NCBI GenBank assembly: GCA_945870035.1
Contig: CAMBQQ010000032.1
Location: forward strand, 1 to 39,534
Direction: 5' to 3'
Source: Rhizobium sp. Q54
GTDB taxonomy: Bacteria > Pseudomonadota > Alphaproteobacteria > Rhizobiales > Xanthobacteraceae
Length of the DNA stretch: 39,534 bases
Made by a program: the position numbers and the translations under genes. The number at the start of each line of letters is the position of its first letter. Position 1 is the first letter of the stretch. Below are positions 1-16,891 of this stretch, one piece after another. The notes below the pieces were generated by a model. It did not search any database. It was given only the letters and a program-made list of their open reading frames with translations, and was not told the origin of the DNA.

Positions 1-129
1 AGGGAAAAGGCAGCTTGTGCCACCCTCAACAGGACGCCGGGTGCATACGGCGGAGCCGCACCGGCGTCAGATCATCTGCCAATTGCCCGCCGATCCGCGC
101 GGGCTAACGATCACGCAGCAAAAACGCTA

Positions 130-849
130 TTGTTCGAGGTGCCCATATGCTTTGTCGGCATTGGGCAACCCTCCGCCGCCTGCAACCTGGCGCGGCTGAC
201 GCATGCGCCGGACATCACGCTGATCTATGAATCCGGCACGCTCGCCACCAAGCCGACCGTGCTGCCTTTGTCGATAGGCGACGGCGAATTGTGCGACACC
301 GCGCTGACGACCGTGTCGGTGCCGGAGATGTTCCGCTACTGGCTGCAAGGCGGCCGCATCAAGGTGGGCTTCCTCGGCGGCGCGCAGATCGACAAGTTCG
401 CCAACCTCAACACGACGGTGGTCGGCCCTTACGACAAGCCGAAAGTGCGCCTGCCCGGCGGCGGCGGCGCCCCGGAGATCGCGACGTCATGCGGCGAGAT
501 TTTCATTATCATGGCGCAGGGCAAGCGCTCCTTCGTCGAGAAGCTCGATTTCGTTACGTCGATCGGTCACGTTTCGGGCGGCGACTCGCGCCAGAAGCTC
601 GGCGTCAAGACCAAGGGCCCGACCAGGTTGATCACCGACATGGCGGTGTGGGCGCCCGATCCGGAGACCAAGGAGATGACCGTCGTTTCGATCCATCCGG
701 GCGTCACCCGCGAGCAGATCCAGGAAAACACCGGCTGGACGGTGAAGTTCGCCGCCAAGGTCGAAGAGACCCCGGCGCCGACGGCGAAAGAACTTGAGGT
801 GCTGCGCGAACTGCACGCGCGCACCAACAAGGCGCATGCGGCGGCATAA
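130..849 (+). CDS. CoA-transferase beta subunit (3-oxoadipate/glutaconate CoA-transferase type), 5' end unresolved
   Basis: Small (beta) subunit of a two-subunit family I CoA-transferase, probably moving CoA from succinyl-CoA to 3-oxoadipate, since pcaF, pcaH and pcaG follow on the same strand. The body is typical of the family found in actinobacterial and rhizobial pca clusters: CFVGIG with the [15 protein letters not shown] stretch, then YESG, the [10 protein letters not shown] segment, [10 protein letters not shown] and a glycine-rich [12 protein letters not shown] loop. The alpha subunit would lie left of the window. Similarity starts only at about base 145. The ~20 residues that normally precede CFVGIG are not recognisable, and the frame is open to base 1 without an ATG or GTG. 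The TTG at 130 is therefore only a nominal start. The gene may run off the edge or be 5'-rearranged. Stop to pcaF start is 11 bases, so it is co-transcribed. Function is likely; exact substrate is inferred from context. Confidence 0.8.
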
Positions 850-860
850 AGGAAAACAGT

Positions 861-2066
<1,206 letters not shown>

Positions 2067-2084
2067 TAATAAGGACGAATACAA

Positions 2085-2792
2085 ATGTCGCTGATCTATC
2101 CCAAACAAAGCCTTGAGGCGTTCCCGAAACACCTCTCGCCTGGCTACAAGAGTACGATCAAGCGCTCGCCGTCGAAGCCGCTGATGATCGTGCCGCATAC
2201 TTTGTCGGAGCTGACCGGCCCGGTTTACGGCCATGACGCCATCCAGGAAAACGACAACGACCTGACCAAGCAGCACAAAGGCGAGCCGCTCGGCGAGCGT
2301 ATCATTGTGCATGGCCAGGTTCTCGACGAGGACAAGAGGCCGGTACCCAATGCTCTGGTCGAGCTCTGGCAGGCCAATGCCTGCGGCCGCTATGTCCACA
2401 ACGTCGACCAGCATCCGGCGCCGCTCGATCCGAATTTCACCGGGGCCGGCCGCACCGTCACCGACGACAAGGGCTATTACAAATTCATCACCGTGAAACC
2501 GGGTGCCTATCCGTGGGGCAATCACCACAATGCCTGGCGTCCGAACCACATCCACTTCTCGGTGTTCGGCCACTCGTTCCTGTCGCGGCTGGTCACGCAG
2601 ATGTATTTCCCCGGCGACTATCTTTTCCCCTACGATCCGATTTTCAATTCGGTGCTGGATGAAAAGGCGCGGGCGCGCATGATTGCGACTTTCGATCTCG
2701 AGAACACCGTGCCGGATTGGGCGCTGGCGTTCCGCTTCGACATCGTGCTGCGCGGCCGCGAAGCGACCCCGCTCGACAACGACGAACACTAG
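2085..2792 (+). CDS. pcaH: protocatechuate 3,4-dioxygenase beta subunit
   Basis: Iron-carrying beta subunit (235 aa) of protocatechuate 3,4-dioxygenase, which opens the protocatechuate ring between the two hydroxyls to give 3-carboxy-cis,cis-muconate. The four non-haem Fe(III) ligands are visible with family spacing: Tyr103 (GRYVH), Tyr142 (GAYPW), His155 and His157 (NHIHFS). They are offset by a constant five residues from the Pseudomonas putida numbers as I recall them. The N-terminal helical part and the LVELWQANACGRY beta-sandwich strand are also typical. An AAGGA-type ribosome site precedes the ATG. pcaG follows after 14 bases, as expected for an obligate alpha/beta pair. Confidence 0.96.
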   Translation: MSLIYPKQSLEAFPKHLSPGYKSTIKRSPSKPLMIVPHTLSELTGPVYGHDAIQENDNDLTKQHKGEPLGERIIVHGQVLDEDKRPVPNALVELWQANACGRYVHNVDQHPAPLDPNFTGAGRTVTDDKGYYKFITVKPGAYPWGNHHNAWRPNHIHFSVFGHSFLSRLVTQMYFPGDYLFPYDPIFNSVLDEKARARMIATFDLENTVPDWALAFRFDIVLRGREATPLDNDEH

Positions 2793-2806
2793 GACCGGAC
2801 CAAAAA

Positions 2807-3418
2807 ATGTCGGAAATCACGCCCTCACAGACCGTCGGTCCGTTCTTCGCCTATGGGCTCACGCCCAAAGGCCGCTGCGACTGGGATCCGAACGGCAGCT
2901 ACTCGTGGAAGAATACGGTCGAATCCAACCTGGTCACGCCGGATGCCTCAGGCACCCGCATTCGCATCGAAGGCATCGTCTATGACGGCGACAACCTGCC
3001 GATCAACGACTGCATGATCGAGATCTGGCAGGCCGATAGTCAGGGCCGCTATGCCAGCCCGCGCGCGGGCGCTGCGTCCAACACGCAGTTCAAGGGCTTC
3101 GGCCGTTCCGCCACCGACAAGGCCGGGGTGTTTGCCTTCGACACCATCAAGCCGGGGCAGGTCGCAGGTCCCGGCGGCAAGCCGCAGGCCCCGCACATTG
3201 TCGTCTGCATTTACTCGCGCGGCATGATTCGGCAGGTCTATACGCGGCTCTACTTCGCCGACGAAGCGGCCAATGCCGCCGATCCGATCCTGTCGATGGT
3301 GCCTGCCGACCGGCGGAAAACCCTCATTGCCCACAAACAGTCGGGCACCGATCCGGCGCTGTACCGCTTCGACATCCGCGTTCAGGGCGGCGACGAGACG
3401 GTGTTTTTCGATATCTAG
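2807..3418 (+). CDS. pcaG: protocatechuate 3,4-dioxygenase alpha subunit
   Basis: Alpha subunit (203 aa) that pairs with PcaH. It has the same intradiol-dioxygenase beta-sandwich (CMIEIWQADSQGRY near 69-82) but no His-x-His iron pair, as normal for alpha subunits, which shape the active-site entrance without binding iron. The first residues MSEITPSQTVGPFFAYGL are the typical PcaG start, so the ATG at 2807 was chosen over a longer open frame that would overlap pcaH. It is the last gene of the pca run and is followed within 30 bases by a strong hairpin terminator. pcaB, pcaC, pcaD and a pcaQ-type regulator are not in the window. Confidence 0.95.
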   Translation: MSEITPSQTVGPFFAYGLTPKGRCDWDPNGSYSWKNTVESNLVTPDASGTRIRIEGIVYDGDNLPINDCMIEIWQADSQGRYASPRAGAASNTQFKGFGRSATDKAGVFAFDTIKPGQVAGPGGKPQAPHIVVCIYSRGMIRQVYTRLYFADEAANAADPILSMVPADRRKTLIAHKQSGTDPALYRFDIRVQGGDETVFFDI

Positions 3419-3445
3419 CGGCGGTTTTTTTGATCGCGACATCAC

Positions 3446-3478
3446 GGCGGCCAGCCACATGCTGGCCGCCTTTTCTTT
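3446..3478 (+). terminator. rho-independent terminator after pcaG
   Basis: A perfect 10-bp stem (GGCGGCCAGC at 3446-3455 with GCTGGCCGCC at 3461-3470), a 5-base loop CACAT, and TTTTCTTT straight after. It separates the pca operon from the methyl-transfer block. Confidence 0.88.
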
Positions 3479-3619
3479 GCCCACAATTGCCCACGAAACT
3501 GGGCCATTTCTGCCCACCATCACCCGCCGGCGTAGGGCGCTTTTTATTCTCTTAAACCATAAAATGCTGATATATATAGTTATTTAGCGCAGTGGGCTTT
3601 GCCCACACGTTTTGCCCAA
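3479..3619 (+). promoter_or_regulatory. promoter with repeated GCCCAC operator-like motifs
   Basis: The 302-base gap between pcaG and the methyltransferase gene holds six copies of a GCCCA core: GCCCAC at 3479, 3489 and 3512, GTGGGC at 3592, GCCCAC at 3601 and GCCCAA at 3614, plus a TGGGC at 3500. The 3592-3606 pair is a perfect dyad, GTGGGC-TTT-GCCCAC. Between the two groups lies an AT-rich stretch with a good sigma-70-like pair: TTAAAC at 3552-3557, 17 bases, then TATAGT at 3575-3580. This predicts a start near 3587, so the dyad would lie just downstream of it. A repressor-operator arrangement is inference; the regulator is unknown. Confidence 0.5.
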
Positions 3620-3720
3620 CTTTCTCGATGACATTTTGTGGTTGACGAAAAATCCTACGCTTGGTTCGCTGTGCAAGCGCGACGGCCTTCAGAGCCAGCA
3701 AAAAAGCGCGAGGAAACGTC

Positions 3721-5130
3721 ATGAACGAGGTCATCCTTCAGGAGATCAGCGAATTCTGCCGTCAGCGCGGCCTAGCCGAATCCACCTTCGGACGTCGCGC
3801 CGTCAATGACGGCAAACTCGCCAGCCGGCTGCGCAATGGCGGCCGCATCACCACCGACACGCTGGATCGCATCCGCGCCTTCATGTCGCAAAGCGACGAG
3901 GGCGCGCCGGCGCGCCGCCGCGTTCTGTTCGACGCGCCACCGGCGCAATCCCTTCCCGTTATCAAACCGCAGGCGCCGCCAATGGCCACCAACCAGACGG
4001 ATGACGATCCGCAACGCAATTTCCGTTTCTTCGACAACCGCCAGAAATATCTGCTGTTCGTGAATACGTGCAGCGAAAAATGGGAAGTCGCCCAGCGCGT
4101 CAGCCTCGAACTCGGCAATATTCACCCACGGCCGCCGGCGGTGCGCGTCTTCGATGCCGGCGTTGGCGACGGCAGCGTGCTGGCCCGCGTCATGCGCTCG
4201 ATGCACGACAAGTTTCCGACCATGCCGCATTACATCGTCGGCAAGGAAATCAGCCTCGAGGACGTGCGCCTCACCTTGCACAAAATGGCCGACCGTTTCG
4301 TCGAGCATCCTTCCACCGTTCTGGTGCTGACCAATCTTGCCTACGCCGAAGCGCCGTGGCTGGCGGCCAAGTCGCTGCATGCCGCCACCAGCATGATCTG
4401 GAAAGAAGTCGCGATGGACGGTGGCACCGCCCATACGTTCGAAGAGCAGATCACCGCGCTCGAACCGTTCCTGGCCGAAAGTTGGAAGGCCAAGGTGTCG
4501 CCGAAGAGCGGCAACCCGGTCTATGAGCGCCCGGTCGTGCTGGTGATCTACCGCAACGACCACCGCTTTTTGCTCGACCAGGTGATCCCGAAGCCGGGCG
4601 GCACCGTCGCCGACTACGATCTGGTCATTGCCTCGCAGCCATATCGCGCCCGCGCCTCGCTCGAATTCAAGGCCAAGCGCGTGCTGGCGCCGTTGGCTAA
4701 AGCGCTCGGCCCGGGCGGCCGCATGATTGCGATCCAGTCTTATGGCCACGACCCGGCGATGGAGATCATCCACAAGGTCTGGCCGGAGGACAATCCGTTC
4801 ACGCACAGCCGCCACGATCTGCTCAAGGCGACCAAGGTTGAACTGGGCTCTGCGGCGCGCGACATGAATTTCAATGCCTATTCCGACCAGCGCTCGCTGT
4901 TCAAATACGAGATGCACACGCTGCCGTCGGAAGTGTCGTCGTCGATCGGGACGTCCACGTTGATGGCGGCGTGGAACGCCGCGGTTTACGTGGCGCAGGT
5001 CGAGGACGACCGGCTCTCCGACGTCAACAGCGACCGGCGCTTTATCGATGCGACACGCGACACGCTGCAAGAGCACGGCGGCTTGTGGTTCTACGACGAA
5101 TCCTTCGTGATCTCGCGCCGGCGGGAATAG
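3721..5130 (+). CDS. SAM-dependent methyltransferase-like protein with HTH-like N-terminus
   Basis: Protein of 469 aa. Residues 1-60 form a small helical region (SEFCRQRGLAESTFGRRA, then LASRLRNGGRITTDTLDRIRAFM) resembling short helix-turn-helix segments common in Rhizobiales proteins. A Pro/Gln-rich linker of ~30 residues follows. From about 100 on there is a Rossmann methyltransferase core with motif I VFDAGVGDG at 143-151 and ALGPGGRMIAIQSYG near 335-350, typical of class I SAM-dependent enzymes. The substrate cannot be read from sequence. The ATG at 3721 follows a GAGGAAAC ribosome site; an upstream in-frame start at 3661 lacks one. The MTHFR-like gene begins 23 bases after the stop, so this is the first gene of the one-carbon operon. 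The protein could methylate a small molecule, regulate the operon, or both. Confidence 0.7.
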   Translation: MNEVILQEISEFCRQRGLAESTFGRRAVNDGKLASRLRNGGRITTDTLDRIRAFMSQSDEGAPARRRVLFDAPPAQSLPVIKPQAPPMATNQTDDDPQRNFRFFDNRQKYLLFVNTCSEKWEVAQRVSLELGNIHPRPPAVRVFDAGVGDGSVLARVMRSMHDKFPTMPHYIVGKEISLEDVRLTLHKMADRFVEHPSTVLVLTNLAYAEAPWLAAKSLHAATSMIWKEVAMDGGTAHTFEEQITALEPFLAESWKAKVSPKSGNPVYERPVVLVIYRNDHRFLLDQVIPKPGGTVADYDLVIASQPYRARASLEFKAKRVLAPLAKALGPGGRMIAIQSYGHDPAMEIIHKVWPEDNPFTHSRHDLLKATKVELGSAARDMNFNAYSDQRSLFKYEMHTLPSEVSSSIGTSTLMAAWNAAVYVAQVEDDRLSDVNSDRRFIDATRDTLQEHGGLWFYDESFVISRRRE

Positions 5131-5153
5131 GCCATGATGCCGGGTGAATTGTC

Positions 5154-6035
5154 GTGAACGACAATCGCAAGCCCTTTGCCGCGGCGTTCTCGATCGAGGC
5201 GACGCGCCCGCGCCAGGCCGAGATCGCGGCGCTGGCCGGGGCGCTGAAGCCGGGCACGGCGGTTTATCTGTCCGCGGTGCCGAACATGGATGCCGCCGAA
5301 TTGGTCGACGCCGCCGCGCGTCTGCGCAAGGCAGGCCTTGAGCCGATCGCGCATATCGCGGCGCGCCGCTTCGCCAGCGTCGGTCAATTAAACGAATTGC
5401 TGAAGGCGCTGCGCGGCGAGGCCGCCATGCGGCAATTGCTGGTGATCGGCGGCGACATCGAGCCGGGCGGTCCCTTCGCCGATGCGCTGGCGGTAATCCA
5501 GAAAGCCGGCCTGCGCGACTTGGGCTTTGACGAGATCGGCATCGCCGCCCATCCGGAAGGCCATGCCATCATTCCGCCGGGCCGTCTCGAAGCGGCCCTC
5601 GACGAGAAAATCGCCAGCGCCACGGCGCAGGGCCTGCGCACCCACATCGTGAGCCAGTTTTCCTTTTCGCCGGACCGCGTGCTGACCTGGCTCCGCCACT
5701 TGCGGGCCTGCGGCATTGCCGCACCGGTCAAGGTCGGCATGGCCGGCCCGACCAGCGTGCCGGCCCTGTTGCGCTATGCCAAGCGCTGCGGCGTTGCAGC
5801 GTCCTTGCGCGGCCTGGTGTCCGGCGTCGGCGCCGGCCTGGTCGGCCAGATCACCACCGGGACGGTGGGGCCCGGCCGCCTGATCGAGGCGCTGGCGCAG
5901 GCCGATAATTTGGGCGATATCGCGCCGCATTATTTTTCGTTCGGCGGGGTGGTTGAAACCGCATGCTACGCATGCGACGCGGCACGCGGGACGCAACAAT
6001 CCAGCCGTGCTATGGCACGTCCCAACAGCGCCTGA
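5154..6035 (+). CDS. divergent methylenetetrahydrofolate reductase family protein
   Basis: Protein of 293 aa with the MetF/MTHFR barrel pattern: N-terminal AFSIEATRP with a Glu at 15 in the usual catalytic-Glu position, LLVIGGDIEPGGPF near 95-108, the DEIGIAAHPEGH segment, FSFSPDRVLTWLRHLRACGI, and a C-terminal PHYFSFGGVVETA. MTHFR interconverts 5,10-methylene- and 5-methyl-tetrahydrofolate using FAD. The family resemblance is clear, but the sequence is far from housekeeping MetF, for example lacking the usual FFPP after the Glu. Combined with the four MetE-like neighbours, this suggests a dedicated catabolic enzyme, possibly oxidising methyl-THF. The start is GTG at 5154; upstream ATGs at 5134 and 5137 hit a stop at once. 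The C-terminus ends in an unstructured Arg/Ser-rich tail. Confidence 0.82.
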   Translation: MNDNRKPFAAAFSIEATRPRQAEIAALAGALKPGTAVYLSAVPNMDAAELVDAAARLRKAGLEPIAHIAARRFASVGQLNELLKALRGEAAMRQLLVIGGDIEPGGPFADALAVIQKAGLRDLGFDEIGIAAHPEGHAIIPPGRLEAALDEKIASATAQGLRTHIVSQFSFSPDRVLTWLRHLRACGIAAPVKVGMAGPTSVPALLRYAKRCGVAASLRGLVSGVGAGLVGQITTGTVGPGRLIEALAQADNLGDIAPHYFSFGGVVETACYACDAARGTQQSSRAMARPNSA

Positions 6036-6118
6036 CCCGGCGGCCGCCCGGCCTTTTCGGACGTCGCGCGCCCTTGAAAATCACGCCCGCCGCCATGGCG
6101 GGTCCCATGGAGGAAACG

Positions 6119-7231
6119 ATGAGCCAGCGTACCAAGCCGCCCTTCCGCGCCGACCAGGTCGGCAGCATCCTGCGGACCAAGGCCATTCATGACGCCCGCG
6201 AAAAGCACGAAAAGGGCGAAATCACCGGCACGAAATTGAAGGAAATCGAGGACGCGGAAATCGTCAAGGTCATCAAGAAGCAGGAAGACGTCGGGCTGGA
6301 AGCCATCACCGACGGCGAGTACCGCCGCTCGTTCTGGCATTACGATTTCTACGGCATGCTGGACGGCGTCGATGTCGTGAAGGCCGACCACGGCATCCAG
6401 TTCCAGGGCATGCAGACCCAGATGAAGGTGCTCAAGGTCACCGGCAAGATCGGCTTCTCGAAGAACCATCCGATGCTGGAGCACTTCACGTTCCTGAAGA
6501 AGCACGTCACCAAGACGCCGAAGATGTGCATTCCGTCGCCGACGGTGATGCACTTCCGCCTCGAGCCGGGTTCGGTCGCGGCGTCCGCCTATGCAAACCG
6601 CGATGCGATTTTCGACGATCTCGCCATTGCCTATCAGGACGCGATCAAGGCGTTCTACGCCGCCGGCTGCCGCTATTTGCAGTTCGACGACACCGCCTGG
6701 GCCTATCTCTGCTCCGAGGTTGAGCTGAAGAAGGCGCGTGAGCGCGGCCTCGATGTCGATCATCTTCAGGACACCTACACCAAGTGCATCAACAAGGCGC
6801 TTGAGGCCAAGCCCGCCGACATGGTCATCACCACGCATGTCTGCCGCGGCAACTTCCGCTCCACCTTCATCTCGTCGGGCGGCTACGAGCCGGTGGCCGA
6901 GAGCCTATTGGCCAAGTGCAACTACGACGGCTACTTCCTCGAATATGACACCGACCGCGCCGGCGGTTTCGAGCCGCTGCGTTTCCTGCCGAAGGGCAAC
7001 AAGATCGTCGTCTTGGGCCTTGTCAGCTCGAAGGTCGGCGCGCTCGAGCCGGTCGAAGACATCAAGAAGCGCATCAAGGAAGCCGAGAAGTTCGTCGCGC
7101 TCGAGCAGCTCGCGTTGTCGCCGCAGTGCGGCTTTGCCTCGACCGAGGAAGGCAACGTGCTGGCCGAGGACGAGCAGTGGGCCAAGCTGAAGGAGATCGT
7201 CGCGATCTCGAAGGATGTTTGGGGGAAGTAG
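6119..7231 (+). CDS. MetE C-terminal-domain family methyltransferase, paralogue 1
   Basis: Protein of 370 aa equal to the C-terminal catalytic barrel of cobalamin-independent methionine synthase without the N-terminal half. Zinc ligands typical of the family are present: His240 and Cys242 (THVCRGN), Glu275 (FLEYD) and Cys337 (SPQCGF). The MetE substrate-amine loop IDEPA is replaced by QFDDTAW (Asp190). The N-terminal FRADQVGS is shared with the next three genes. The family includes MetE, folate-independent core methionine synthases and epoxyalkane:coenzyme M transferase, so a zinc-thiolate methyl or alkyl transfer is expected but donor and acceptor are unknown. The ATG at 6119 has GGAGGAAACG in front; longer open frames overlap the MTHFR gene. 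The gap to the MTHFR stop is 83 bases. This copy is the most divergent of the four. Confidence 0.85.
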   Translation: MSQRTKPPFRADQVGSILRTKAIHDAREKHEKGEITGTKLKEIEDAEIVKVIKKQEDVGLEAITDGEYRRSFWHYDFYGMLDGVDVVKADHGIQFQGMQTQMKVLKVTGKIGFSKNHPMLEHFTFLKKHVTKTPKMCIPSPTVMHFRLEPGSVAASAYANRDAIFDDLAIAYQDAIKAFYAAGCRYLQFDDTAWAYLCSEVELKKARERGLDVDHLQDTYTKCINKALEAKPADMVITTHVCRGNFRSTFISSGGYEPVAESLLAKCNYDGYFLEYDTDRAGGFEPLRFLPKGNKIVVLGLVSSKVGALEPVEDIKKRIKEAEKFVALEQLALSPQCGFASTEEGNVLAEDEQWAKLKEIVAISKDVWGK

Positions 7232-7240
7232 CTTCCTCTT

Positions 7241-7384
7241 CCCTCTCCCCGCGTGCGGGGAGAGGGTGGCGAGCGGCAAAGCCGCTAGCCGGGTGAGGGG
7301 CTGATTGATATGAGGCTGCCCCTCACCCGACCCGCCTCCGCTCACGCTTCGGCGGGCCGACCTCTCCCCGTAAACGGGGAGAGG
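7241..7384. repeat. rhizobial palindromic intergenic element (three hairpins)
   Basis: Fills the gap between MetE-like copies 1 and 2. Three inverted pairs: CCCTCTCCCCGC/GCGGGGAGAGGG (7241-7252/7255-7266), GGGTGAGGGGC/GCCCCTCACCC (7291-7301/7318-7328) and CCTCTCCCCGT/ACGGGGAGAGG (7361-7371/7374-7384). Such CTCTCCCC/CCTCACCC elements are common between rhizobial genes. They may attenuate transcription or protect mRNA 3' ends. Confidence 0.8.
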
Positions 7385-7409
7385 TAAAGAAAAATCCAGG
7401 GAGTGATCA

Positions 7410-8513
7410 ATGCCGCAACGCACGTCGCCGCCATTCCGCGCCGATCATGTCGGCAGTCTGTTGCGTCCTGCCGCGTTGAAAGCCGCCCGCGCCCAGCATG
7501 CCGCGGGCGGCATCGATGCCGCCACGCTCAAGGCCGTCGAAGACCGCGAAATCGTCAAGGTCATCAAGAAGCAGGAAGAGATCGGCCTGCAACTGGCCAC
7601 CGACGGTGAATTCCGCCGTTCGTGGTGGCATTTCGATTTCTTCCGCGGCCTGCAAGGCGTCGACTTCGTCGCCGCGCCGCCGATCAAATTCCACGGCGTC
7701 GAGACCAAGAGCGAAGCGGTGAAGATCAACCGCAAGGTCGATTTTGCCGGGCACCCGCATCTCGACCACTTCAAATTTCTGAAAGCCAATTGCGCCGTCA
7801 CGCCGAAAATGACGATCCCGGCGCCGTCGACATTCCACTTCCGGCATGGCCGGGCGATGATCAGCAAGGATGTCTATCCCGATCTCGACGTCTTCTTCGA
7901 CGATGTCGGCCGCACCTGGCAGAAGGCGATCCGCGCCTTTTACGACGCCGGCTGCCGCTATCTGCAACTCGACGACACTGCCTGGGCGATGATGTGCGAT
8001 CCGAAGGAGCGCGAGGGTTCCAAAGCGCGCGGCGATGATCCCGACGCGCTGCCGGAAATCTATGCGCGCGTCACCAATGCCGCGCTCAAGGACAAGCCGG
8101 CCGACATGGCGGTGACGATGCATTCCTGCCGCGGCAATTTTCGTTCGACCTGGATCGCGCAAGGCGGCTACGAATTCGTCGCCGAGCAATTGCTCGGCAA
8201 CACGAATCTCGACGGTTATTTCCTCGAATACGATTCCGACCGCGCCGGCGGCTTCGAGCCGCTGCGTTTCTTCCCCAAAGGCAACAAGCAGCTCGTGCTT
8301 GGGCTGGTGACGTCAAAGAGCGGCACGCTCGAATCCAAAGACGACATCAAGCGCCGCATCGACCAGGCGACGAAATATGTCGCGCTCGACCAGCTTTGCC
8401 TGTCGCCTCAATGCGGTTTTTCCTCGACCGAGGAAGGCAATGTGCTGGCCGAGGACGAGCAGTGGGCCAAGCTGCGCATGATCGTCGAACTGTCAAAGGA
8501 AATCTGGAAGTAA
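7410..8513 (+). CDS. MetE C-terminal-domain family methyltransferase, paralogue 2
   Basis: Protein of 367 aa, second of the tandem set. Zinc ligands His238 and Cys240 (MHSCRGNF), Glu273 (FLEYD) and Cys335 (SPQCGF); Asp188 in QLDDTAW. It shares with copy 1 the DDTAW loop and the GYFLEYD-DRAGG segment, and with copies 2-4 the FRADHVGSLLRPAALK N-terminus. No MetE N-terminal domain is present. The ATG at 7410 follows a CCAGGGAGTGATCA ribosome region directly downstream of the palindromic element. Its stop overlaps the start of copy 3 by one base (TAATG), so copies 2 and 3 are translationally coupled. The reaction is expected to be zinc-dependent methyl transfer between a methyl donor (methyl-folate or another compound) and a thiol; the real substrates are not known. 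Confidence 0.85.
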   Translation: MPQRTSPPFRADHVGSLLRPAALKAARAQHAAGGIDAATLKAVEDREIVKVIKKQEEIGLQLATDGEFRRSWWHFDFFRGLQGVDFVAAPPIKFHGVETKSEAVKINRKVDFAGHPHLDHFKFLKANCAVTPKMTIPAPSTFHFRHGRAMISKDVYPDLDVFFDDVGRTWQKAIRAFYDAGCRYLQLDDTAWAMMCDPKEREGSKARGDDPDALPEIYARVTNAALKDKPADMAVTMHSCRGNFRSTWIAQGGYEFVAEQLLGNTNLDGYFLEYDSDRAGGFEPLRFFPKGNKQLVLGLVTSKSGTLESKDDIKRRIDQATKYVALDQLCLSPQCGFSSTEEGNVLAEDEQWAKLRMIVELSKEIWK

Positions 8514-9619
8514 TGACCCTTCGCGCCACACCGCCGTTTCGTGCCGACCATGTCGGCAGTCTGCTCCGCCCCGCCGCGCTGAAACAGGCCCGTGCCCAGC
8601 GCGAGAAAGGCGAGATCACCGCCGAGGCGCTGAAAACGATAGAAGACCGCGAGATCGTCGCCGTCATCAAGAAGCAGGAAGACGTCGGGCTCAAGTCCAT
8701 CACCGATGGTGAATTCCGCCGTGCCTTCTGGAACTACGATTTTCTGGGCGAGCTCGACGGCGCCGAAGCCTATCTCGGCGAACGCAAGATCAAGTTCGAA
8801 GGCGTCAATCCGCGGCCGATGATGATGCGGGTGACGGGCAAGCTCGGCACGTTCAGCGGCCATTCGATGCTCGAGCATTTCAGGTTCCTGAAAGAGCACA
8901 CACGCGCGACGCCGAAGATGACGATCCCGTCGCCGTCCAGCATGCATTTCCGCTATGGCCGCGACGCCGTGCCGGCGAGCATCTATCCCGACATGAGCGA
9001 TTTCTACCGCGATCTCGGCGCGACCTATCGCCAGGCCGTGCGCGCTTTCGCAGATGTGGGTTGCCGCTATTTGCAACTCGACGAAGTGAACTTCACGTAT
9101 CTGTGCGATCCGAAATTGCGCGAGCAGGTCGCCAGTCGCGGTGACGATCCTGACAAACTGCCGCTGATCTATGCCGACATGATCAATGCGGCGATTTCGG
9201 ATATTCCCGCCGACATGGCGATCACCATGCATTTGTGCCGCGGAAATTTCCAATCCACATTCGTGGCTTCGGGTGGCTACGAGCCGGTCGCGGAAATCCT
9301 GTTTAACAAAATCAATGTGCGCGGCTACTTCATGGAATACGATTCGGCGCGCGCCGGCGGTTTCGAGCCGCTGCGTTTCGTGCCGAAAGGCAAGACGGTG
9401 GTGCTGGGACTGGTCACGTCGAAATCGGGCAAGCTCGAGTCGAAGGATGAGCTCAAGCGCCGCATCGACGAGGCGGCGAAATTCATTCCGCTCGAGCAGC
9501 TTTGCCTGTCGCCCCAGTGCGGCTTTGCCTCGACCGAGGAGGGCAACATCCTCGCCGAGGACGAGCAATGGGCCAAGCTGCGCATGATCGTGGAGTTGAG
9601 TGAGGAAGTTTGGGGCTGA
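8513..9619 (+). CDS. MetE C-terminal-domain family methyltransferase, paralogue 3
   Basis: Protein of 368 aa. Zinc ligands His240 and Cys242 (MHLCRGNF), Glu275 (FMEYD) and Cys336 (SPQCGF). Here the substrate loop reads QLDEVNF (Asp190, Glu191), nearer to the MetE LDEP pattern than copies 1 and 2. The ILFNKINV and FMEYD-ARAGG segments are shared with copy 4, so 3 and 4 form one sub-pair. The ATG at 8513 overlaps the preceding stop by one base. A longer in-frame extension (to 8396) lies wholly inside copy 2 and was rejected. As with its neighbours, the homologous domain in MetE transfers a methyl group to homocysteine; the native acceptor here is unproven. Confidence 0.85.
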   Translation: MTLRATPPFRADHVGSLLRPAALKQARAQREKGEITAEALKTIEDREIVAVIKKQEDVGLKSITDGEFRRAFWNYDFLGELDGAEAYLGERKIKFEGVNPRPMMMRVTGKLGTFSGHSMLEHFRFLKEHTRATPKMTIPSPSSMHFRYGRDAVPASIYPDMSDFYRDLGATYRQAVRAFADVGCRYLQLDEVNFTYLCDPKLREQVASRGDDPDKLPLIYADMINAAISDIPADMAITMHLCRGNFQSTFVASGGYEPVAEILFNKINVRGYFMEYDSARAGGFEPLRFVPKGKTVVLGLVTSKSGKLESKDELKRRIDEAAKFIPLEQLCLSPQCGFASTEEGNILAEDEQWAKLRMIVELSEEVWG

Positions 9620-9624
9620 TGTTT

Positions 9625-9743
9625 ATCCCTCCCCCGAAGGGGGAGGGTGGCGAGCGCAGCGAGCCGGGTGGGGTTTTGCTAGACGTTAAGCGATACCCAC
9701 CCCCGCGCTGCGCGCGGACCCTCCCCTTGCAGGGGAGGGATAA
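9625..9743. repeat. rhizobial palindromic intergenic element
   Basis: Lies between MetE-like copies 3 and 4. Outer arms are TATCCCTCCCC near 9625 and GGGGAGGGATA near 9733; inner hairpins include CCCTCCCCC-GAA-GGGGGAGGG (9627-9635/9639-9647). It is the same family as the element at 10878-11003, starting with the same ~23 bases. Confidence 0.8.
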
Positions 9744-9767
9744 GAAGAAGCAGGGAGCACGTACTCA

Positions 9768-10871
9768 ATGTCCCAACGTAGCAAGCCGCCGTTCCGTGCC
9801 GACCATGTCGGCAGCCTGTTGCGCCCGGCCGCGCTCAAGGAAGCCCGCGCCAAATTCGCCAAAGGCGAGATCGACGCCGCAGCGCTGAAAGCAGTCGAGG
9901 ACCGCGAGATCGAGCGTGTCATCAAGAAGCAAGAGGAGGTCGGGCTGAAATCCGTCACCGACGGCGAATTCCGCCGCTCGTGGTGGCATCTTGATTTTCT
10001 CTGGGGTCTCGACGGCGCCGAAAAGCATGTGATGGATTCAGGCGTTGCCTTCGCCGGCATGGCGACGCGCAACGAGGGCGTCAAGGTCACAGGCAAGCTT
10101 GGCTTCAGCGGCCATCCGATGCTCGAGCACTTCAAGTTTGTCGCCGCGCACACAAAGCAGACGGCGAAGATCACGATTCCGGCGCCGTCGGCGATCTATG
10201 GCCGCCCGGTCAGGCCGCCGATCGATGCCGGCATCTATCCGCAGCTCGACGCGATGTTCGAGGATCTCGGCCAGGCCTACAGGAAAGCCGTGCGCGCCTT
10301 CGCCGATGCCGGCTGCCGCTATCTGCAACTCGACGAAGTTTTCATCGCCATGCTGTGCGACGATAAATATCGGGCGCAGATGACGGCGCGCGGCGACGAT
10401 CCGGAAAAGCTCGGCGCTCTTTATGCCGACCTCATCAACGTGGCGATGTCGGATATTCCGTCCGACATGACCATCACCATGCATATGTGCCGCGGCAATC
10501 ACAAATCGACCTTCATGGGCGCTGGCGGCTACGCCGCGGTGCAGGAGATCCTGTTCAACAAGATCAACGTGCACGGCTTCTTCATGGAATATGACGACGC
10601 CCGCGCCGGCGGCTTCGAGCCGCTGCGGCTGCTGCCAAAGGACAAGAGCGTGGTGCTTGGGCTTGTCACCTCGAAGTCCGGCAAGCTCGAATCGAAGGAT
10701 GAGCTGAAGCGCCGTATCGACGAGGCGTCGAAATTCGCGCCGCTGGAGCAGCTTTGCCTGTCGCCGCAATGCGGCTTCGCCTCGACGGAGGAAGGCAACA
10801 TCCTCGCCGAAGACGAGCAATGGGCCAAGCTGCGCATGATCGTCGAACTGGCGGAAGAGGTTTGGGGCTAG
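9768..10871 (+). CDS. MetE C-terminal-domain family methyltransferase, paralogue 4
   Basis: Protein of 367 aa, last of the four tandem copies. Zinc ligands His239 and Cys241 (MHMCRGNH), Glu274 (FMEYD) and Cys335 (SPQCGF); substrate loop QLDEVFI with Asp189. It groups with copy 3 by ILFNKINV and FMEYD-ARAGG. It differs from the others in the middle: the HFRxG segment before the first barrel half is replaced by IYGRPVRPP (143-151), and RGNF becomes RGNH at 243-246. Both may alter substrate fit. The ATG at 9768 follows GCAGGGAGCACG. Palindromic elements on both sides may isolate its mRNA from its neighbours. Zinc-dependent thiol methyl or alkyl transfer is expected from the family; donor and acceptor are unknown. 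Confidence 0.85.
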   Translation: MSQRSKPPFRADHVGSLLRPAALKEARAKFAKGEIDAAALKAVEDREIERVIKKQEEVGLKSVTDGEFRRSWWHLDFLWGLDGAEKHVMDSGVAFAGMATRNEGVKVTGKLGFSGHPMLEHFKFVAAHTKQTAKITIPAPSAIYGRPVRPPIDAGIYPQLDAMFEDLGQAYRKAVRAFADAGCRYLQLDEVFIAMLCDDKYRAQMTARGDDPEKLGALYADLINVAMSDIPSDMTITMHMCRGNHKSTFMGAGGYAAVQEILFNKINVHGFFMEYDDARAGGFEPLRLLPKDKSVVLGLVTSKSGKLESKDELKRRIDEASKFAPLEQLCLSPQCGFASTEEGNILAEDEQWAKLRMIVELAEEVWG

Positions 10872-10877
10872 TTTTCT

Positions 10878-11003
10878 TATCCCTCCCCCGAAGGGGGAGG
10901 GTGGCGGCCGCAAGGCCGCCGGGTGGGGTTTTTGTACTTGTCACCCCACCCGTCCGCTCGCTATCGCTCGCGTCCACCCTCCCCGAAGGCGGGGAGGGAT
11001 AAG
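10878..11003. repeat. rhizobial palindromic intergenic element
   Basis: Outer arms CTTATCCCTCCCC (from 10877) and GGGGAGGGATAAG (to 11003), with inner hairpins CCCTCCCCC-GAA-GGGGGAGGG and GGCGGCC-GCAA-GGCCGCC. Same family as 9625-9743. It closes the MetE-like array and precedes the MaoC gene. Confidence 0.8.
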
Positions 11004-11030
11004 AAGCGAGCTGCGCTGACAGGATCCCGC

Positions 11031-11897
11031 ATGCCCGTCAATCTCGAAAAACTGCTGACTCATAAAGTCGCCCCGGTCGAACAGACCTACGGGCCGAAGG
11101 ATTGCATCCTTTACGCGCTCGGCCTCGGCTTCGGCCAGGACCCGACCGACGAGAACGAATTGCAATTCGTCTATGAGAAAAACCTCAAGGCGCTGCCGAC
11201 CTGGCCGCTGAAGCAGGGCTACCTGCCGTATTGGCTGCGCGACGAGGACTACGGCCTGACCTTTTCGCATGCGGTGCATGGCGAGCAGACCGTCGTGCTG
11301 CACGAACCCGTCGCCGTTCAGGGCACGGTCATCGGCCAAGAAAAGGTCGTCGACGTCATTGACAAGGGAGAGGGGCGCGGCGCGCTGATTTACTCCGAGC
11401 GCACCATCGCCGACAAGGCCAGCGGCCGATTGCTGGCGACCTTGATGCAGACTACCTTCTGCCGCGCCGATGGCGGATTCGACGGCCCGCGCGAGCGTAA
11501 AAACGCCGCGCCGCCGCACGCCATCCCGAATCGCGCGCCGGACCTGATTTGCGATCTGCCGACCCGTCCGGAAATGGCGCTGATCTATCGGTTATCCGGA
11601 GACATCAACCCGCTGCACGCCGATCCGGAGTTCGCCAAGACTGCCGGGTTTCCGCGGCCGATTCTTCACGGGCTGGCCACCATGGGCGTCGCCGGACACG
11701 CGCTACTCAAAACGGTATGCGGTTATGTTCCGGCGAGGCTCACGGCGATGGCGGTGCGTTTCTCCGCCCCGGTGTTCCCCGGCGAAACCATCCGCACCGA
11801 AATCTGGCGCGATGGCAACGTGGCAAGTTTCCGCGCCCGTGTTATGGAGCGCGATGTGGTGGCCATCAGTAACGGCCGCGCCGAGATTGCCGGGTAA
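11031..11897 (+). CDS. MaoC-like (double hot-dog) enoyl-CoA hydratase
   Basis: Protein of 288 aa with the two-repeat hot-dog layout of hydratase-2 enzymes, as in the peroxisomal multifunctional enzyme 2 hydratase. The C-terminal repeat carries the hydratase-2 motif YRLSGDINPLHADPEFA (186-202) with catalytic Asp191 and His196, followed by RPILHGLATMG. The N-terminal repeat (1-150) lacks the motif, as expected. It would add water to a trans-2-enoyl-CoA to give the (R)-3-hydroxyacyl-CoA. The ATG at 11031 was chosen because the longer open frame runs into the palindromic element. The acyl-CoA dehydrogenase starts 3 bases after the stop, and a family III CoA-transferase follows, so the three act on one acyl-CoA pathway. 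Confidence 0.88.
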   Translation: MPVNLEKLLTHKVAPVEQTYGPKDCILYALGLGFGQDPTDENELQFVYEKNLKALPTWPLKQGYLPYWLRDEDYGLTFSHAVHGEQTVVLHEPVAVQGTVIGQEKVVDVIDKGEGRGALIYSERTIADKASGRLLATLMQTTFCRADGGFDGPRERKNAAPPHAIPNRAPDLICDLPTRPEMALIYRLSGDINPLHADPEFAKTAGFPRPILHGLATMGVAGHALLKTVCGYVPARLTAMAVRFSAPVFPGETIRTEIWRDGNVASFRARVMERDVVAISNGRAEIAG

Positions 11898-11900
11898 CAA

Positions 11901-13067
11901 ATGACGAAAACCGCCGACCGCGACGCCTATGCCGACATCCGCGAATCCGTGCGCGCGCTGTGTGCGCGCTTCCCCGGCGAATACTGGCGCGATCTCGACC
12001 GCGAACGCGCCTATCCGACGGCGTTCGTCAATGCGCTCACCGAAGCCGGCTATCTCGCCGCTTTGATCCCGGAAGAATTCGGCGGCAGCGGCCTCACGGT
12101 CAGCGCCGCCGCGGCGATCATGGAAGAGGTGCACGCTACCGGCTGCAACGGCGCCGCCTGCCACGCGCAGATGTACACCATGGGCACCATTTTGCGGCAT
12201 GGATCGCCGGCGCAGAAGCAGGCCTATCTGCCGGGGATCGCCAGCGGCGAACTGCGCCTGCAGGCCTTCGGCGTCACCGAGCCGACGTCCGGCACCGATA
12301 CGTTGTCGCTGCGCACGACGGCGCGGCGCGATGGTGACGCTTACGTCATCAACGGCCAGAAGATCTGGACATCGCGCGCCGAGCATTCCGATCTGATGCT
12401 GCTCCTCGCGCGCACCACGCCAAAAGAGCAGGCGGTCAAGCGCACCGACGGGTTGTCGGTGTTCCTGGTCGACATGCGGCTGGCGCAAGGCGCGGGCATC
12501 ACCATCAACCCGATCCGCACCATGATGAACCACGCCACGACCGAAGTGTTCTTTGACGATCTGCGCGTCCCGGCGGCAAATCTCATCGGCGAGGAGGGCA
12601 AGGGCTTCCGCTACATTCTCTCCGGCATGAACACCGAGCGCATTCTCATCGCGTCGGAATGCATCGGCGACGCCAAATGGTTCATTGAGAAGGCGACCGC
12701 TTACGCCAAGAGCCGCGAACTGTTCGGTCGTCCGATCGGACAAAACCAGGGTGTGCAGTTTCCGATCGCGCGGGCTTATGCGCAGATGCGCGCCGCCGAA
12801 CTGATGGTGCATGAAGCCGCGCGTAAGTATGAAGCCGGCGGCGATATCGGCGCCGAGGCTAACATGGCGAAGCTCTTGGCCGCCGATGCGTCATGGGCCG
12901 CCGCCGACATGTGCGTGCAGACGCATGGCGGCTTCGGCTTTGCCGAGGAATACGACATCGAGCGCAAGTTCCGCGAAACGCGACTCTACCAGGTGGCGCC
13001 GATCTCGACCAACCTGATCCTGTCGTATCTCGCCGAGCATGTGCTCGGCCTGCCGCGGTCGTATTGA
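11901..13067 (+). CDS. acyl-CoA dehydrogenase
   Basis: FAD-dependent acyl-CoA dehydrogenase of 388 aa. Visible family segments: the AFGVTEPTSGTD flavin-binding strand (122-133), KIWTSRAEHSD (154-164), the RELFGRPIGQNQGVQF region and the THGGFGFAEEYDIERKFRE helix. The usual catalytic Glu near the C-terminus (YEGTSEI in most members) is absent; the position reads YQVAPIST. A Glu at 246 in NTERILIAS sits where isovaleryl- and long-chain-type enzymes carry theirs, so it is the likely base. The product is a 2,3-enoyl-CoA, fitting the hydratase encoded just upstream. Only 3 bases separate them, and the next gene starts 1 base after the stop. The acyl chain is unknown. Confidence 0.88.
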   Translation: MTKTADRDAYADIRESVRALCARFPGEYWRDLDRERAYPTAFVNALTEAGYLAALIPEEFGGSGLTVSAAAAIMEEVHATGCNGAACHAQMYTMGTILRHGSPAQKQAYLPGIASGELRLQAFGVTEPTSGTDTLSLRTTARRDGDAYVINGQKIWTSRAEHSDLMLLLARTTPKEQAVKRTDGLSVFLVDMRLAQGAGITINPIRTMMNHATTEVFFDDLRVPAANLIGEEGKGFRYILSGMNTERILIASECIGDAKWFIEKATAYAKSRELFGRPIGQNQGVQFPIARAYAQMRAAELMVHEAARKYEAGGDIGAEANMAKLLAADASWAAADMCVQTHGGFGFAEEYDIERKFRETRLYQVAPISTNLILSYLAEHVLGLPRSY

Positions 13068-13068
13068 G

Positions 13069-14196
13069 ATGTCGCTCCCGCTCGAAGGTATCCTTGTTGT
13101 CTCGGTCGAACAGGCCGTCGCCGCGCCGCAATGCACTTGCCGGCTGGCCGATGCCGGCGCGCGCGTCATCAAGGTCGAGCGGCCGGAAGGCGATTTCGCC
13201 CGCCATTACGACTACATCGTGCATGGCGAGAGCGCGCATCTGGTCTGGCTCAATCGCGGCAAAGAGTCCGTCGTCTGCGATCTCACCAAGGATGAGGACA
13301 AGGCCCTGCTCGAAGCGATGCTCGCCAAGGCCGACGTCTTTGTGCAGAACCTCAAGCCCGGTGCGCTCGGCAAGCTCGGCTTTTCGTTCGAGCGGTTGCG
13401 CAAGGATTATCCGAAGCTGATCTGCGCTTCCATTTCAGGCTACGGCGAGAGCGGGCCCTTCGCGCAACGCAAAGCCTACGATCTTTTGATCCAGGCCGAG
13501 TCGGGCCTGTCATCGGTGACCGGCGGGCCGGAAGGGCCGGCACGCGTCGGCGTCTCTGTGGTCGATATTGCCGCGGGCCTCAGTGCCTATGAGGCGATCC
13601 TCGAAGCCATCATCCGCCGGTCGCGCACCGGCGAGGGCGCGACGATTTCGATTTCGATGTTCGACGCCATGGCCGAGTGGATGACCATCCCGCTGCTCAA
13701 TCAGGAATGGGGCAATCCGTTCAAGCGCGTCGGCCTGGCGCATCCGACCATCGCGCCCTATGGCGTGTTCAAGACGCGTGATGACGCCGACATCCTGATC
13801 TCGATCCAGAACGACCGCGAATGGCGCATGCTCGCCGACAAGGTGCTGGGCAATGCCGCGCTCGGCACTGACGCGCGCTTCGCCACTAATCCGCAGCGCC
13901 AGGCCAACCGCGCCGCGACCGACGCCGAAGTGGCGCGCGTCTTCGCGACGCAGGATGTTGAGCCCCTGATGAAGGCGCTGGCGGCGGCTGACATTGCTTT
14001 CGCGCGCGTCAATGACTCGGCTTTGCTGGCGACGCATCCGCATTTGCGGCGGATTTCGGTCGACACGCCGAGCGGGCCGGCGAGCACGCCGGCGCCGGCA
14101 TCGCAATTTGTCGGTGAGCGCCGCGAGTATGGCGGGGTTCCGGCGCTGGGATCGCATTCGGAAAAGATCAGGAAAGAGTTTGCGCGCGGACCCTAA
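13069..14196 (+). CDS. family III CoA-transferase (CaiB/BaiF)
   Basis: Protein of 375 aa of the CaiB/BaiF fold, which moves CoA between acids through an aspartyl-CoA anhydride. The likely catalytic Asp138 lies in KAYDLLIQAESG, and the N-terminal half carries the family strings GARVIKVERPEGD and LNRGKESVVCDL. C-terminal GLAHPTIAPYGVFKTRDD is also typical. The start at 13069 is one base after the acyl-CoA dehydrogenase stop; an earlier in-frame start lies inside that gene. Its role here is probably to activate the free acid for the dehydrogenase and hydratase, or to shift CoA within a dicarboxylate as in mesaconyl-CoA C1-C4 transferase. It overlaps the end of the convergent emrB-like gene by 3 bases. 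Confidence 0.88.
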   Translation: MSLPLEGILVVSVEQAVAAPQCTCRLADAGARVIKVERPEGDFARHYDYIVHGESAHLVWLNRGKESVVCDLTKDEDKALLEAMLAKADVFVQNLKPGALGKLGFSFERLRKDYPKLICASISGYGESGPFAQRKAYDLLIQAESGLSSVTGGPEGPARVGVSVVDIAAGLSAYEAILEAIIRRSRTGEGATISISMFDAMAEWMTIPLLNQEWGNPFKRVGLAHPTIAPYGVFKTRDDADILISIQNDREWRMLADKVLGNAALGTDARFATNPQRQANRAATDAEVARVFATQDVEPLMKALAAADIAFARVNDSALLATHPHLRRISVDTPSGPASTPAPASQFVGERREYGGVPALGSHSEKIRKEFARGP

Positions 14197-15746: not shown

Positions 15747-16891
15747 TTCGTGAGATCTTTGGATAGTTCTCTGGACATGAACGGCAGTCGGCTGTGGCCG
15801 GTGTCGATCTCGACATTGACGCTCATGCCGGTGCGCAGCAGATGCGTGTCCTCGCCTTTATCGAAGGCAATGCGCACCGGTACGCGCTGCACCACCTTGA
15901 CCCAGTTGCCGCTGGCGTTCTGCGCCGGCAGGATCGAGAACTGCGAGCCGGTGCCGGGGCTGATCGCGACGACGGTACCTTTGAAGGTGTGGTTGGGAAA
16001 CGAATCGACGTCGAGCGTCACCTTCTGGCCGAGGCGCAGATAGGTGATGTCGGTTTCCTTCGGGTTGGCTTCGACCCATGGGGCGCTGTCGTCGATGACG
16101 CTGAGGATTGGCCCGCCCGCGGAAACGAAGCGGCCGAGCTGGATATTATCGACCTGCGTCGCAGTGCCGCCGATCGGCGCGCGCAACACGGTGTGGTCGA
16201 GATCGCGCTGCGCCTGGTCGAGCGCGGCCTTGGCCTGCATATAGGCCGGGAATTTCTCCATCGGCAGATTGGGATCGCCGAGCAACTGGTTGAGCGCGTC
16301 GTCGCGCTGCTGTGTGCCATAGCGCGATTGCAACTGCGCTGTGACCAACGCGCTCATCGCGGTATCGACATCGGCCTTCGAGCCGGATTGGGAATTGACC
16401 AGGCTGGCCTTGCGCTCGACGTCGCGCTGCTTGATCTCGGCGTTCTTCTGGGAAAGCTCGACCAGAGTGTTGAGCGACGTGAGATTGCTCTTCAGCTTGT
16501 CGAAGTCGGTCCGCACCGTCGCCAGTCTGGCTTCAGCCTGCGCCACGGCGAGCCGATAGGGAACGGGATCGAGGCTGAGCAATTCGTCGCCGGCGTTGAC
16601 GTGCTGCCCTTCGCGGACGGCGATATTGATGATCTTGCCGGAAATATCCGGCGTGATGAGAACCTTCTGCGCGCCGACATAGGCGTTGTCGGTCGAGATG
16701 TATCGTCCACCCATCAGATAGATGCCGGCGCCGATCAGCAGCGCCAGCGCCGGCAACACGATCAGCAGGATGGTGCGCAGGCGCTTGCGTCGGGGAGCTG
16801 CGCCACGCGCGGCGGCTGGCGCTTCGGTTGCTGCTTCCGGCGATGTTTTGGATTCGGGGGCCGGGACGACTTTCAGGACTTTGTCACTCAT
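15743..16891 (-). CDS. HlyD/EmrA-type membrane fusion protein
   Basis: Periplasmic adaptor of 382 aa anchored by one N-terminal membrane segment (~41-64, LLIVLPALALLIGAGIYLMG). Then comes GRYISTDNAYVGAQKVLITP, the hallmark of EmrA-type adaptors, a lipoyl half (GQHVNAGDELLSLD), a long coiled-coil hairpin (~95-210, KLKSNLTSLNTLVELSQKNAE) and the second lipoyl half (TVLRAPIGGTATQVDNIQLG). It links the EmrB-like pump to an outer-membrane channel. The stop overlaps the emrB start by four bases (ATGA), and its own start overlaps the marR stop in the same way. It is therefore the middle gene of a tightly coupled three-gene operon. Confidence 0.92.
   Translation of the reverse strand: MSDKVLKVVPAPESKTSPEAATEAPAAARGAAPRRKRLRTILLIVLPALALLIGAGIYLMGGRYISTDNAYVGAQKVLITPDISGKIINIAVREGQHVNAGDELLSLDPVPYRLAVAQAEARLATVRTDFDKLKSNLTSLNTLVELSQKNAEIKQRDVERKASLVNSQSGSKADVDTAMSALVTAQLQSRYGTQQRDDALNQLLGDPNLPMEKFPAYMQAKAALDQAQRDLDHTVLRAPIGGTATQVDNIQLGRFVSAGGPILSVIDDSAPWVEANPKETDITYLRLGQKVTLDVDSFPNHTFKGTVVAISPGTGSQFSILPAQNASGNWVKVVQRVPVRIAFDKGEDTHLLRTGMSVNVEIDTGHSRLPFMSRELSKDLTK

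Follow-up and report, generated by a model that had tools for sequence, protein, structure and literature searches.

The window analysed here, the first 39,534 bases of contig CAMBQQ010000032.1 (C32) of Rhizobium sp. Q54 (GCA_945870035.1), carries at 3721-10871 a block of six genes. They are a conserved gene here called SAMMT, a gene for a methylenetetrahydrofolate reductase (MTHFR), and four genes, M1 to M4, for proteins of the MetE-core type. We lean towards the reading that the block is the one-carbon (C1) arm of a hydroxycinnamate and vanillate island, and that M1-M4 are homocysteine methyltransferases fed by the methyl groups of methoxylated aromatics. The window genome is a metagenome-assembled genome (MAG) of 4.12 Mb and 91% completeness. 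It was compared with a genus set of 43 Pseudolabrys-like Xanthobacteraceae genomes, in which 41 clusters were viewed (40 loci of relatives and that of the window), and with wider sets of 198 genomes of the bacterial family and 249 genomes of the order. The first-pass annotation had described six same-strand genes beside pca genes; all six open reading frames were present and intact on the plus strand, and the neighbouring pcaF, pcaH and pcaG passed their NCBIfam cut-offs. The ratio of non-synonymous to synonymous substitution rates against the sister genome G003 was 0.02-0.08 for the six genes, which are therefore under purifying selection.

In the proposed pathway, acids of the ferulate type, the presumed substrates, would be activated and shortened by acyl-CoA synthetases and a crotonase, and the ring would pass by way of protocatechuate to the products of pcaHG, pcaF and pcaIJ. 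The methyl groups derived from the methoxy substituents would be transferred to tetrahydrofolate (THF) or homocysteine. MTHFR is proposed to run oxidatively, from 5-methyl-THF to 5,10-methylene-THF, and would in this way supply C1 units to the pool. Some members of the genus would carry out O-demethylation with LigM, encoded beside MTHFR. The window genome has no LigM and carries four MetE-core paralogues. M1-M4 would act on homocysteine as zinc-thiolate methyltransferases, differing from one another in the donor and most likely accepting methyl groups of methoxyaromatic origin.

M1 to M4 all passed the model NF005085 (PRK06520, named 5-methyltetrahydropteroyltriglutamate--homocysteine S-methyltransferase), with 569.5, 576.7, 540.4 and 522.7 bits (cut-off 313). 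The first-pass annotation was right about four MetE-core copies and slightly off on their lengths, which are 367-372 and not 367-370 residues and correspond to the catalytic half of MetE only. M4, the sole paralogue searched against the PDB, matched 1ypx with an E-value of 5e-119. The zinc ligands His, Cys, Glu and Cys had been reported as intact, and the alignment bore this out: the zinc set H-C-E-C and the homocysteine set S-E-D were complete in the four proteins (S18, E69, D192, H242, C244, E277 and C339 in M1, placed by motif). The seven positions are as named for E. coli MetE in the accessible part of PMC7857596, and each was kept in 81-83 of 83 aligned homologues. Because the homocysteine and zinc sites are intact, homocysteine is likely to be the acceptor of M1-M4, and the same homocysteine residues speak against an identity as epoxyalkane:CoM transferase.

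In a tree of 83 PRK06520 proteins and two outgroup rows, each of the four paralogues formed an old clade of its own with members from across the genus. The support values for M1, M2, M3 and M4 were 100/99, 95/86, 100/98 and 100/99, strong for all but M2, which was still supported. M3 and M4 are likely sisters (97/73), and copies from other genera (L078-L102) are sisters of M1 (100/97). Nineteen positions differed as fixed states between the clades; among them, positions 193 and 194, beside the homocysteine aspartate, and 276, beside a zinc ligand, separated M1 and M2 from M3 and M4. Such clade-fixed positions would fit differing methyl donors among the paralogues, without naming them.

A role of M1-M4 as housekeeping metE was rejected, since they comprise the catalytic half only and the genome encodes MetH as well as another methionine synthase of the core type. 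The latter, the L003 protein, scored 543.5 bits with NF006589 ('methionine synthase', cut-off 392), which we take to be the model for MesD. M1-M4 are thus not the sole methionine synthases; with the same model they reached 51, 37.1, 42.5 and 36.6 bits. The remaining PF01717 proteins of the window genome were distant from M1-M4. Two distant MetE-core genes on contig C55 (L111) stand in tandem beside an amidohydrolase-like gene, recognised by eye, and are possibly another catabolic use of the MetE fold.

In agreement with the first-pass annotation, the MTHFR was not of the housekeeping type: it scored 24.1 bits with TIGR00676 (cut-off 293.7) and 20.8 bits with PF02219 (cut-off 24). The closest solved relative was 7xg9 (E 1.1e-46), and 1v93 and 3apt matched only at E 1.6e-5. 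We take 7xg9 to be the enzyme of Sphingobium lignivorans SYK-6 that oxidises the methyl-THF made by the vanillate O-demethylase LigM. A subfamily of MTHFR that oxidises methyl-THF and is paired with LigM was described for SYK-6 (PMC12585457), and the pair is also described in the accessible part of PMC13001107. Judged from sequence type and from the ligM neighbourhood in relatives, the MTHFR of the window probably belongs to this LigM-coupled type. An orthologue was found in 40 of the 43 genus genomes (E<=1.2e-42), and the other three (G020, G024 and G032) gave weak matches only. The possibility of a broken MTHFR in relatives was rejected, as the in-frame stops in 10 genomes all lay at the C-terminal end, from about residue 278 onwards in a protein of 293.

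The gene order in the genus was pcaF-H-G, SAMMT, MTHFR, a varying subset of M1-M4, a short-chain dehydrogenase/reductase (SDR) and/or MaoC gene, an acyl-CoA dehydrogenase (ACAD) gene and a CaiB gene, and pcaJ was also seen in 19 of the 41 clusters. At least one M gene was present in 40 clusters. pcaH lay upstream of SAMMT in 37, and in the remaining four a contig start or end falls inside the block or beside it. Linkage of the set in other genomes, for which the first-pass annotation had proposed a neighbourhood search, was strongly conserved in the genus, which runs counter to the lack of linkage named there as a refutation, and MetH was present as well. A DUF3237-like gene, a crotonase gene (NF006013) and acyl-CoA synthetase genes stand divergently upstream, and one or another of these was seen in 32 of the 40 loci of relatives. 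In the window genome, two acyl-CoA synthetase genes, a crotonase gene, a DUF3237-like gene and a pcaI-like gene lie on contig C121; pcaI is at the end of this contig and the window contig starts with pcaJ, and the two may be joined as one island. The island serves protocatechuate catabolism and, as the synthetase and crotonase are read here, hydroxycinnamate catabolism. The MaoC, ACAD and CaiB genes, in relatives together with the SDR gene, come after the MetE-core array in the genus; with PcaF they would form a full beta-oxidation spiral to 3-oxoadipyl-CoA, whose substrate is perhaps a dicarboxylate or else the side chain of an aromatic compound. In two genomes, G028 and G030 (L142 and L143), four island proteins grouped with close relatives of the window, and MTHFR and M1 fell elsewhere on the tree, being 49/53% and 80/79% identical to those of the window. 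MTHFR, LigM, a GntR gene and M1 look foreign to the otherwise native islands of these two genomes, which suggests that they were exchanged as one block.

Scanning of the 43 genus genomes with PF01571 gave matches of about 469 residues directly beside MTHFR in many members. The example in L044 was LigM, with 751.5 bits for the equivalog model NF047885 (cut-off 580) and E-values of about 9e-212 for 5x1i/5tl4 in the PDB. Of the 41 clusters, 16 contained LigM, encoded behind MTHFR and on the other strand; the G020 contig stops at this point. A GntR gene accompanied LigM in 10 of these clusters. Neither LigM nor the glycine-cleavage T-protein was found in the 91%-complete MAG of the window, where the sole PF01571 match was weak and lay in a frame of 326 residues. 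In L035, VanA-like, VanB-like and GntR genes were inserted in the same island; the Van names were given by eye and are not those of NCBIfam.

Linkage of ligM to PRK06520 genes extended beyond the genus. LigM (E<=1e-60) was found in 15 of the 198 family genomes, 8 of them outside the genus, M1-like proteins (E<=1e-60) in 144 and MTHFR of the LigM-coupled type (E<=1e-25) in 63. Outside the genus, 13 places were at least 50% identical to the LigM query and 11 were inspected (55-89% identical); a PRK06520 gene lay 0.08-1.5 kb from LigM in 8 of the 11 (L157-L162, L166 and L167, from 5 genera). Several of these LigM islands also carried acyl-CoA synthetase, crotonase, DUF3237-like and pca genes, and PRK06520 arrays with pca genes and no ligM were seen in L168 and L169. 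Two LigM/PRK06520 islands contained a further MetE-like gene, whose product was 26-28% identical to M1, adjoining liv-type binding-protein genes (L157 2056-3099 and L159 4550-5572).

Another reading is that M1-M4 draw their methyl groups from N- or S-methylated compounds, such as betaines and sulfoniums, taken up by linked liv-type transporters, and that aromatic catabolism is a separate neighbour. Liv-type ABC transporter genes and PurU (by eye) flank PRK06520 in related genera, and within the genus liv-type binding-protein genes interleave with the M genes in L036, L040, L041, L046 and L059. On a plasmid of Klebsiella quasipneumoniae (NZ_CP082786.1, L149), PRK06520 lies directly 5' of five urt-annotated ABC transporter genes, a likeness to the liv-type genes beside PRK06520 in Xanthobacteraceae. 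However, the adjacency of ligM, acyl-CoA synthetase and pca genes points to aromatics, and aromatic acids are also among the compounds that binding proteins of the liv type can carry. N- or S-methylated donors are accordingly regarded as unlikely. On a plasmid of Pantoea piersonii (NZ_CP115898.1, L150), PRK06520 follows galB, a CHA aldolase gene, a 4-oxalomesaconate tautomerase gene and an oxidoreductase gene; this is a gallate-type pathway beside a MetE-core in a gammaproteobacterium.

The first gene of the block had been labelled a SAM (S-adenosylmethionine) methyltransferase, and this label could not be confirmed. SAMMT gave no significant match in Pfam, NCBIfam or the PDB, neither as a single sequence nor as a profile of 20 sequences. 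The profile had one PDB match at E 2.1, and when its 20 members were scanned against Pfam, only a single member matched, once, with an E-value of 0.11. A motif resembling those of class I methyltransferases (FDAGVGDG) and an N-terminus resembling a helix-turn-helix (HTH) were recognised by eye only. The AlphaFold model, made from 11 close sequences, had a confidence score (pLDDT) of 44 and was unusable for a fold search. A conserved palindrome upstream of SAMMT was not found, exact arms of 6-7 bp being present in at most 3 of 21 sequences. SAMMT was present in 146 of the 198 family genomes (three of them weak matches) and, among the 249 genomes of the order, in 13 that belong to other families. 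Its neighbours in 40 loci outside the genus were MTHFR (15), MetK (19), AhcY (19), MetE-core genes (16) and PurU (9), with MetK, AhcY and PurU named by eye. In L084, L085 and L098, from other genera of the family, PurU, liv-type ABC, MetE-core, SAMMT, MetK and AhcY genes are consecutive on one strand and, by eye, form a compact methyl-cycle cluster; an opposite-strand reading frame was called among the methyl-cycle genes of L084 and L098. Of the 13 loci from other families, 6 lacked the HTH-like part, and the second domain of SAMMT can therefore stand alone. These six homologues (L118-L123) come from five other families and have varied neighbours, which by eye include aminotransferase-like and ferredoxin-reductase-like genes in L121 and L122 and another type of MetE-core in L123. 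SAMMT would probably be a regulator that senses SAM or S-adenosylhomocysteine (SAH) and controls the methyl-cycle set, or a methyltransferase within that set.

A known counterpart is SahR, described in the accessible part of PMC4239095 as an SAH-responsive regulator. SAMMT resembles it in combining HTH-like and methyltransferase-like parts, as judged by eye, and in its SAM-cycle neighbours, but differs in having no match to the ArsR family in Pfam or NCBIfam. A separate SahR-like protein, recognised by eye, adjoins metF-metH in the window genome (L109:3571-4581). The regulator logic of SahR is analogous to what would be expected if the block were a housekeeping module of the SAM cycle, in which a reducing MTHFR and extra methionine synthases stand under SAMMT and merely happen to lie beside pca genes. 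SAMMT-MTHFR and SAMMT-MetK-AhcY combinations without pca genes in other genera are in keeping with this idea. Yet a SahR-like gene, metF and metH already stand in a row in the genome (the first two named by eye), and the MTHFR fails the housekeeping models and resembles 7xg9. The pca neighbourhood is moreover conserved across the genus, and pca or acyl-CoA synthetase genes adjoin PRK06520 with no SAMMT in the stretch in L157, L159, L161 and L169. A housekeeping module is thus improbable.

Several findings weigh against the preferred reading. M1 was kept in 15 of the 16 clusters with LigM and is therefore no simple LigM substitute. For M2, the 32 complete clusters comprised 8 with LigM only, 4 with both, 19 with M2 only and 1 with neither (Fisher p 0.0004), but the tree reduces these to 4-5 independent contrasts, with M2 changing twice. 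A strict replacement of LigM by M2-M4 was rejected on this ground, the counts being suggestive and the replacement not established once the tree is considered. A VanA-like oxygenase, at least 64% identical to that of L035, occurs in 10 of the 43 genus genomes, including that of the window. The acyl-CoA synthetase is probably a feruloyl-CoA synthetase, although the one example passed only the general model NF009232 ('acyl-CoA synthetase'). Outside the genus, L165 has MTHFR instead of PRK06520 beside LigM, L163 has neither and L164 is cut. The family-wide association of the MTHFR with two or more PRK06520 copies (50 of 63 genomes with MTHFR against 19 of 135 without; 17 of 21 against 3 of 26 genera; at most 10 candidates per genome scored) favours the preferred reading, but consists of raw counts in which relatedness is ignored. 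In many other genera PRK06520 genes adjoin liv-type transporters and PurU and not aromatic genes, and annotated plasmid copies in Roseinatronobacter, Rhodovulum, Moraxella and Rubrobacter stand in unrelated contexts. Methyl ethers are not the donors of the MetE-cores studied so far, as covered in the accessible part of PMC7857596; these enzymes use methylcobalamin or a donor that is not known. Finally, with homocysteine as stoichiometric acceptor during growth on vanillate, the methionine formed would have to be demethylated again. This cost argues for a methyl sink or a special recycling, and our confidence is modest for that reason.

VanAB as the standing demethylase was also considered and rejected, as the VanA-like gene is confined to the 10 genomes mentioned and no VanB was seen adjoining it in the window genome.

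A more specific mechanism can be pictured, in which M2-M4, and perhaps M1, are zinc-thiolate aryl O-demethylases, free of cobalamin and independent of oxygen, that replace LigM and transfer the methoxy methyl of vanillate- or syringate-type compounds straight to homocysteine. SAMMT, SAM synthetase and SAH hydrolase would then close a homocysteine-SAM cycle that delivers the methyl group to THF for oxidation by MTHFR. A methyl ether donor is conceivable because the superfamily holds corrinoid-dependent phenolic O-demethylases, but this mechanism is doubtful. Somewhat less so, and possible in our view, is that M1-M4 are a methyl sink, which passes methyl groups from methyl-THF (produced by LigM or other demethylases) or from a methyl carrier to homocysteine; methionine and SAM would then be made with methoxy carbon, and the aromatic compound itself would be left untouched. 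Conservation of the homocysteine and zinc residues, the retention of M1 with LigM, the adjacency of PRK06520 and LigM in other genera, and the SAM-cycle enzymes MetK and AhcY beside SAMMT in related genera all speak for a sink. Against a sink stand the length of M1-M4, which is that of the MetE catalytic half, and the MesA, MesB and MesD proteins, which according to the accessible part of PMC7857596 do not use methyl-THF. Four diverged paralogues would also be needless for one sink, with MetH already present. A supply of methoxyaromatic methyl groups to M1-M4 remains the reading we prefer; the first-pass annotation had proposed a similar pathway, and the context supports its methoxyaromatic and MTHFR-C1 part well, its methyltransferase label for the first gene and its assignment of a separate donor to each paralogue excepted.

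Removing methoxy groups is a bottleneck when lignin is to be used; the known aerobic enzymes for this are of the Rieske (VanAB), P450 and LigM types. The LigM-MTHFR pair is already known. The system of SYK-6 shares with the window the sequence type of the MTHFR (7xg9/7xlf, which we presume to be from SYK-6) and protocatechuate catabolism; ligM is present in the 16 related islands, and no T-protein was found in the window genome. Unlike SYK-6, the window genome lacks ligM, has four MetE-cores and SAMMT beside the MTHFR, and cleaves the ring by pcaHG (3,4-cleavage). The core methionine synthases MesA-D, as far as they are described in the accessible part of PMC7857596 (Price et al. 2021), likewise consist of the MetE catalytic half with the same zinc and homocysteine residues, whereas M1-M4 belong to PRK06520, score 37-51 bits with NF006589 and stand in an array beside MTHFR and aromatic genes. 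The corrinoid-dependent phenolic O-demethylases share the MetE superfamily and act on aryl methyl ethers (PMC10418091, accessible part), but the nine block proteins scanned (3721-14196) gave no match to any corrinoid family. In the open-licence PMC literature, which gives partial coverage, no publication was found that assigns MetE-core paralogues a part in the O-demethylation of aromatics. On this weak evidence, what appears to be new is the occurrence of MetE-core arrays in these islands, the fact that they are linked to ligM across several genera, and the clusters of MTHFR and M1-M4 without ligM. PRK06520 is a large and little-studied family, here tied in part of a bacterial family to ligM, pca, acyl-CoA synthetase and an oxidative-type MTHFR. 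This offers a concrete and testable candidate function for proteins now called methionine synthases, and O-demethylation may thereby gain one more type.

Table 1. Genes of the block and its surroundings in the window.
Feature	Position	Strand	Evidence and remarks
pcaJ-like CoA-transferase beta subunit	130..849	+	Named by eye and from relatives; near contig start; no NCBIfam match at E<=1e-60
pcaF, 3-oxoadipyl-CoA thiolase	861..2066	+	TIGR02430, 701.8 bits (cut-off 597)
pcaH, protocatechuate 3,4-dioxygenase beta	2085..2792	+	TIGR02422, above cut-off
pcaG, protocatechuate 3,4-dioxygenase alpha	2804..3418	+	TIGR02423, above cut-off
SAMMT, conserved protein, putative regulator or methyltransferase	3721..5130	+	469 aa; domains by eye
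MTHFR, probably LigM-coupled type	5154..6035	+	293 aa; PDB 7xg9/7xlf, E 1.1e-46; adjoins ligM in relatives
M1, MetE-core (PRK06520)	6113..7231	+	372 aa; NF005085
M2, MetE-core paralogue	7410..8513	+	367 aa; NF005085
M3, MetE-core paralogue	8510..9619	+	369 aa; NF005085; 4-bp overlap with M2
M4, MetE-core paralogue	9768..10871	+	367 aa; NF005085; PDB 1ypx, E 5e-119
MaoC / MFE-2-type enoyl-CoA hydratase	11031..11897	+	PF01575, PF22622; recurs 3' of block in relatives
Acyl-CoA dehydrogenase	11901..13067	+	Recurs downstream in relatives
Family III (CaiB-type) CoA-transferase	13069..14196	+	PF02515; recurs downstream in relatives

The genes are closely spaced, with gaps of 302 bp between pcaG and SAMMT, 23 bp between SAMMT and MTHFR, 77 bp between MTHFR and M1, 178 bp between M1 and M2, 148 bp between M3 and M4 and 159 bp between M4 and the MaoC gene. 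No riboswitch was detected, the three Rfam matches in window positions 1-16000 all being below the gathering score. An EmrAB-type efflux pair follows on the opposite strand (window 14193-16891), and EmrB ends the island in 17 of the 41 clusters, including that of the window.

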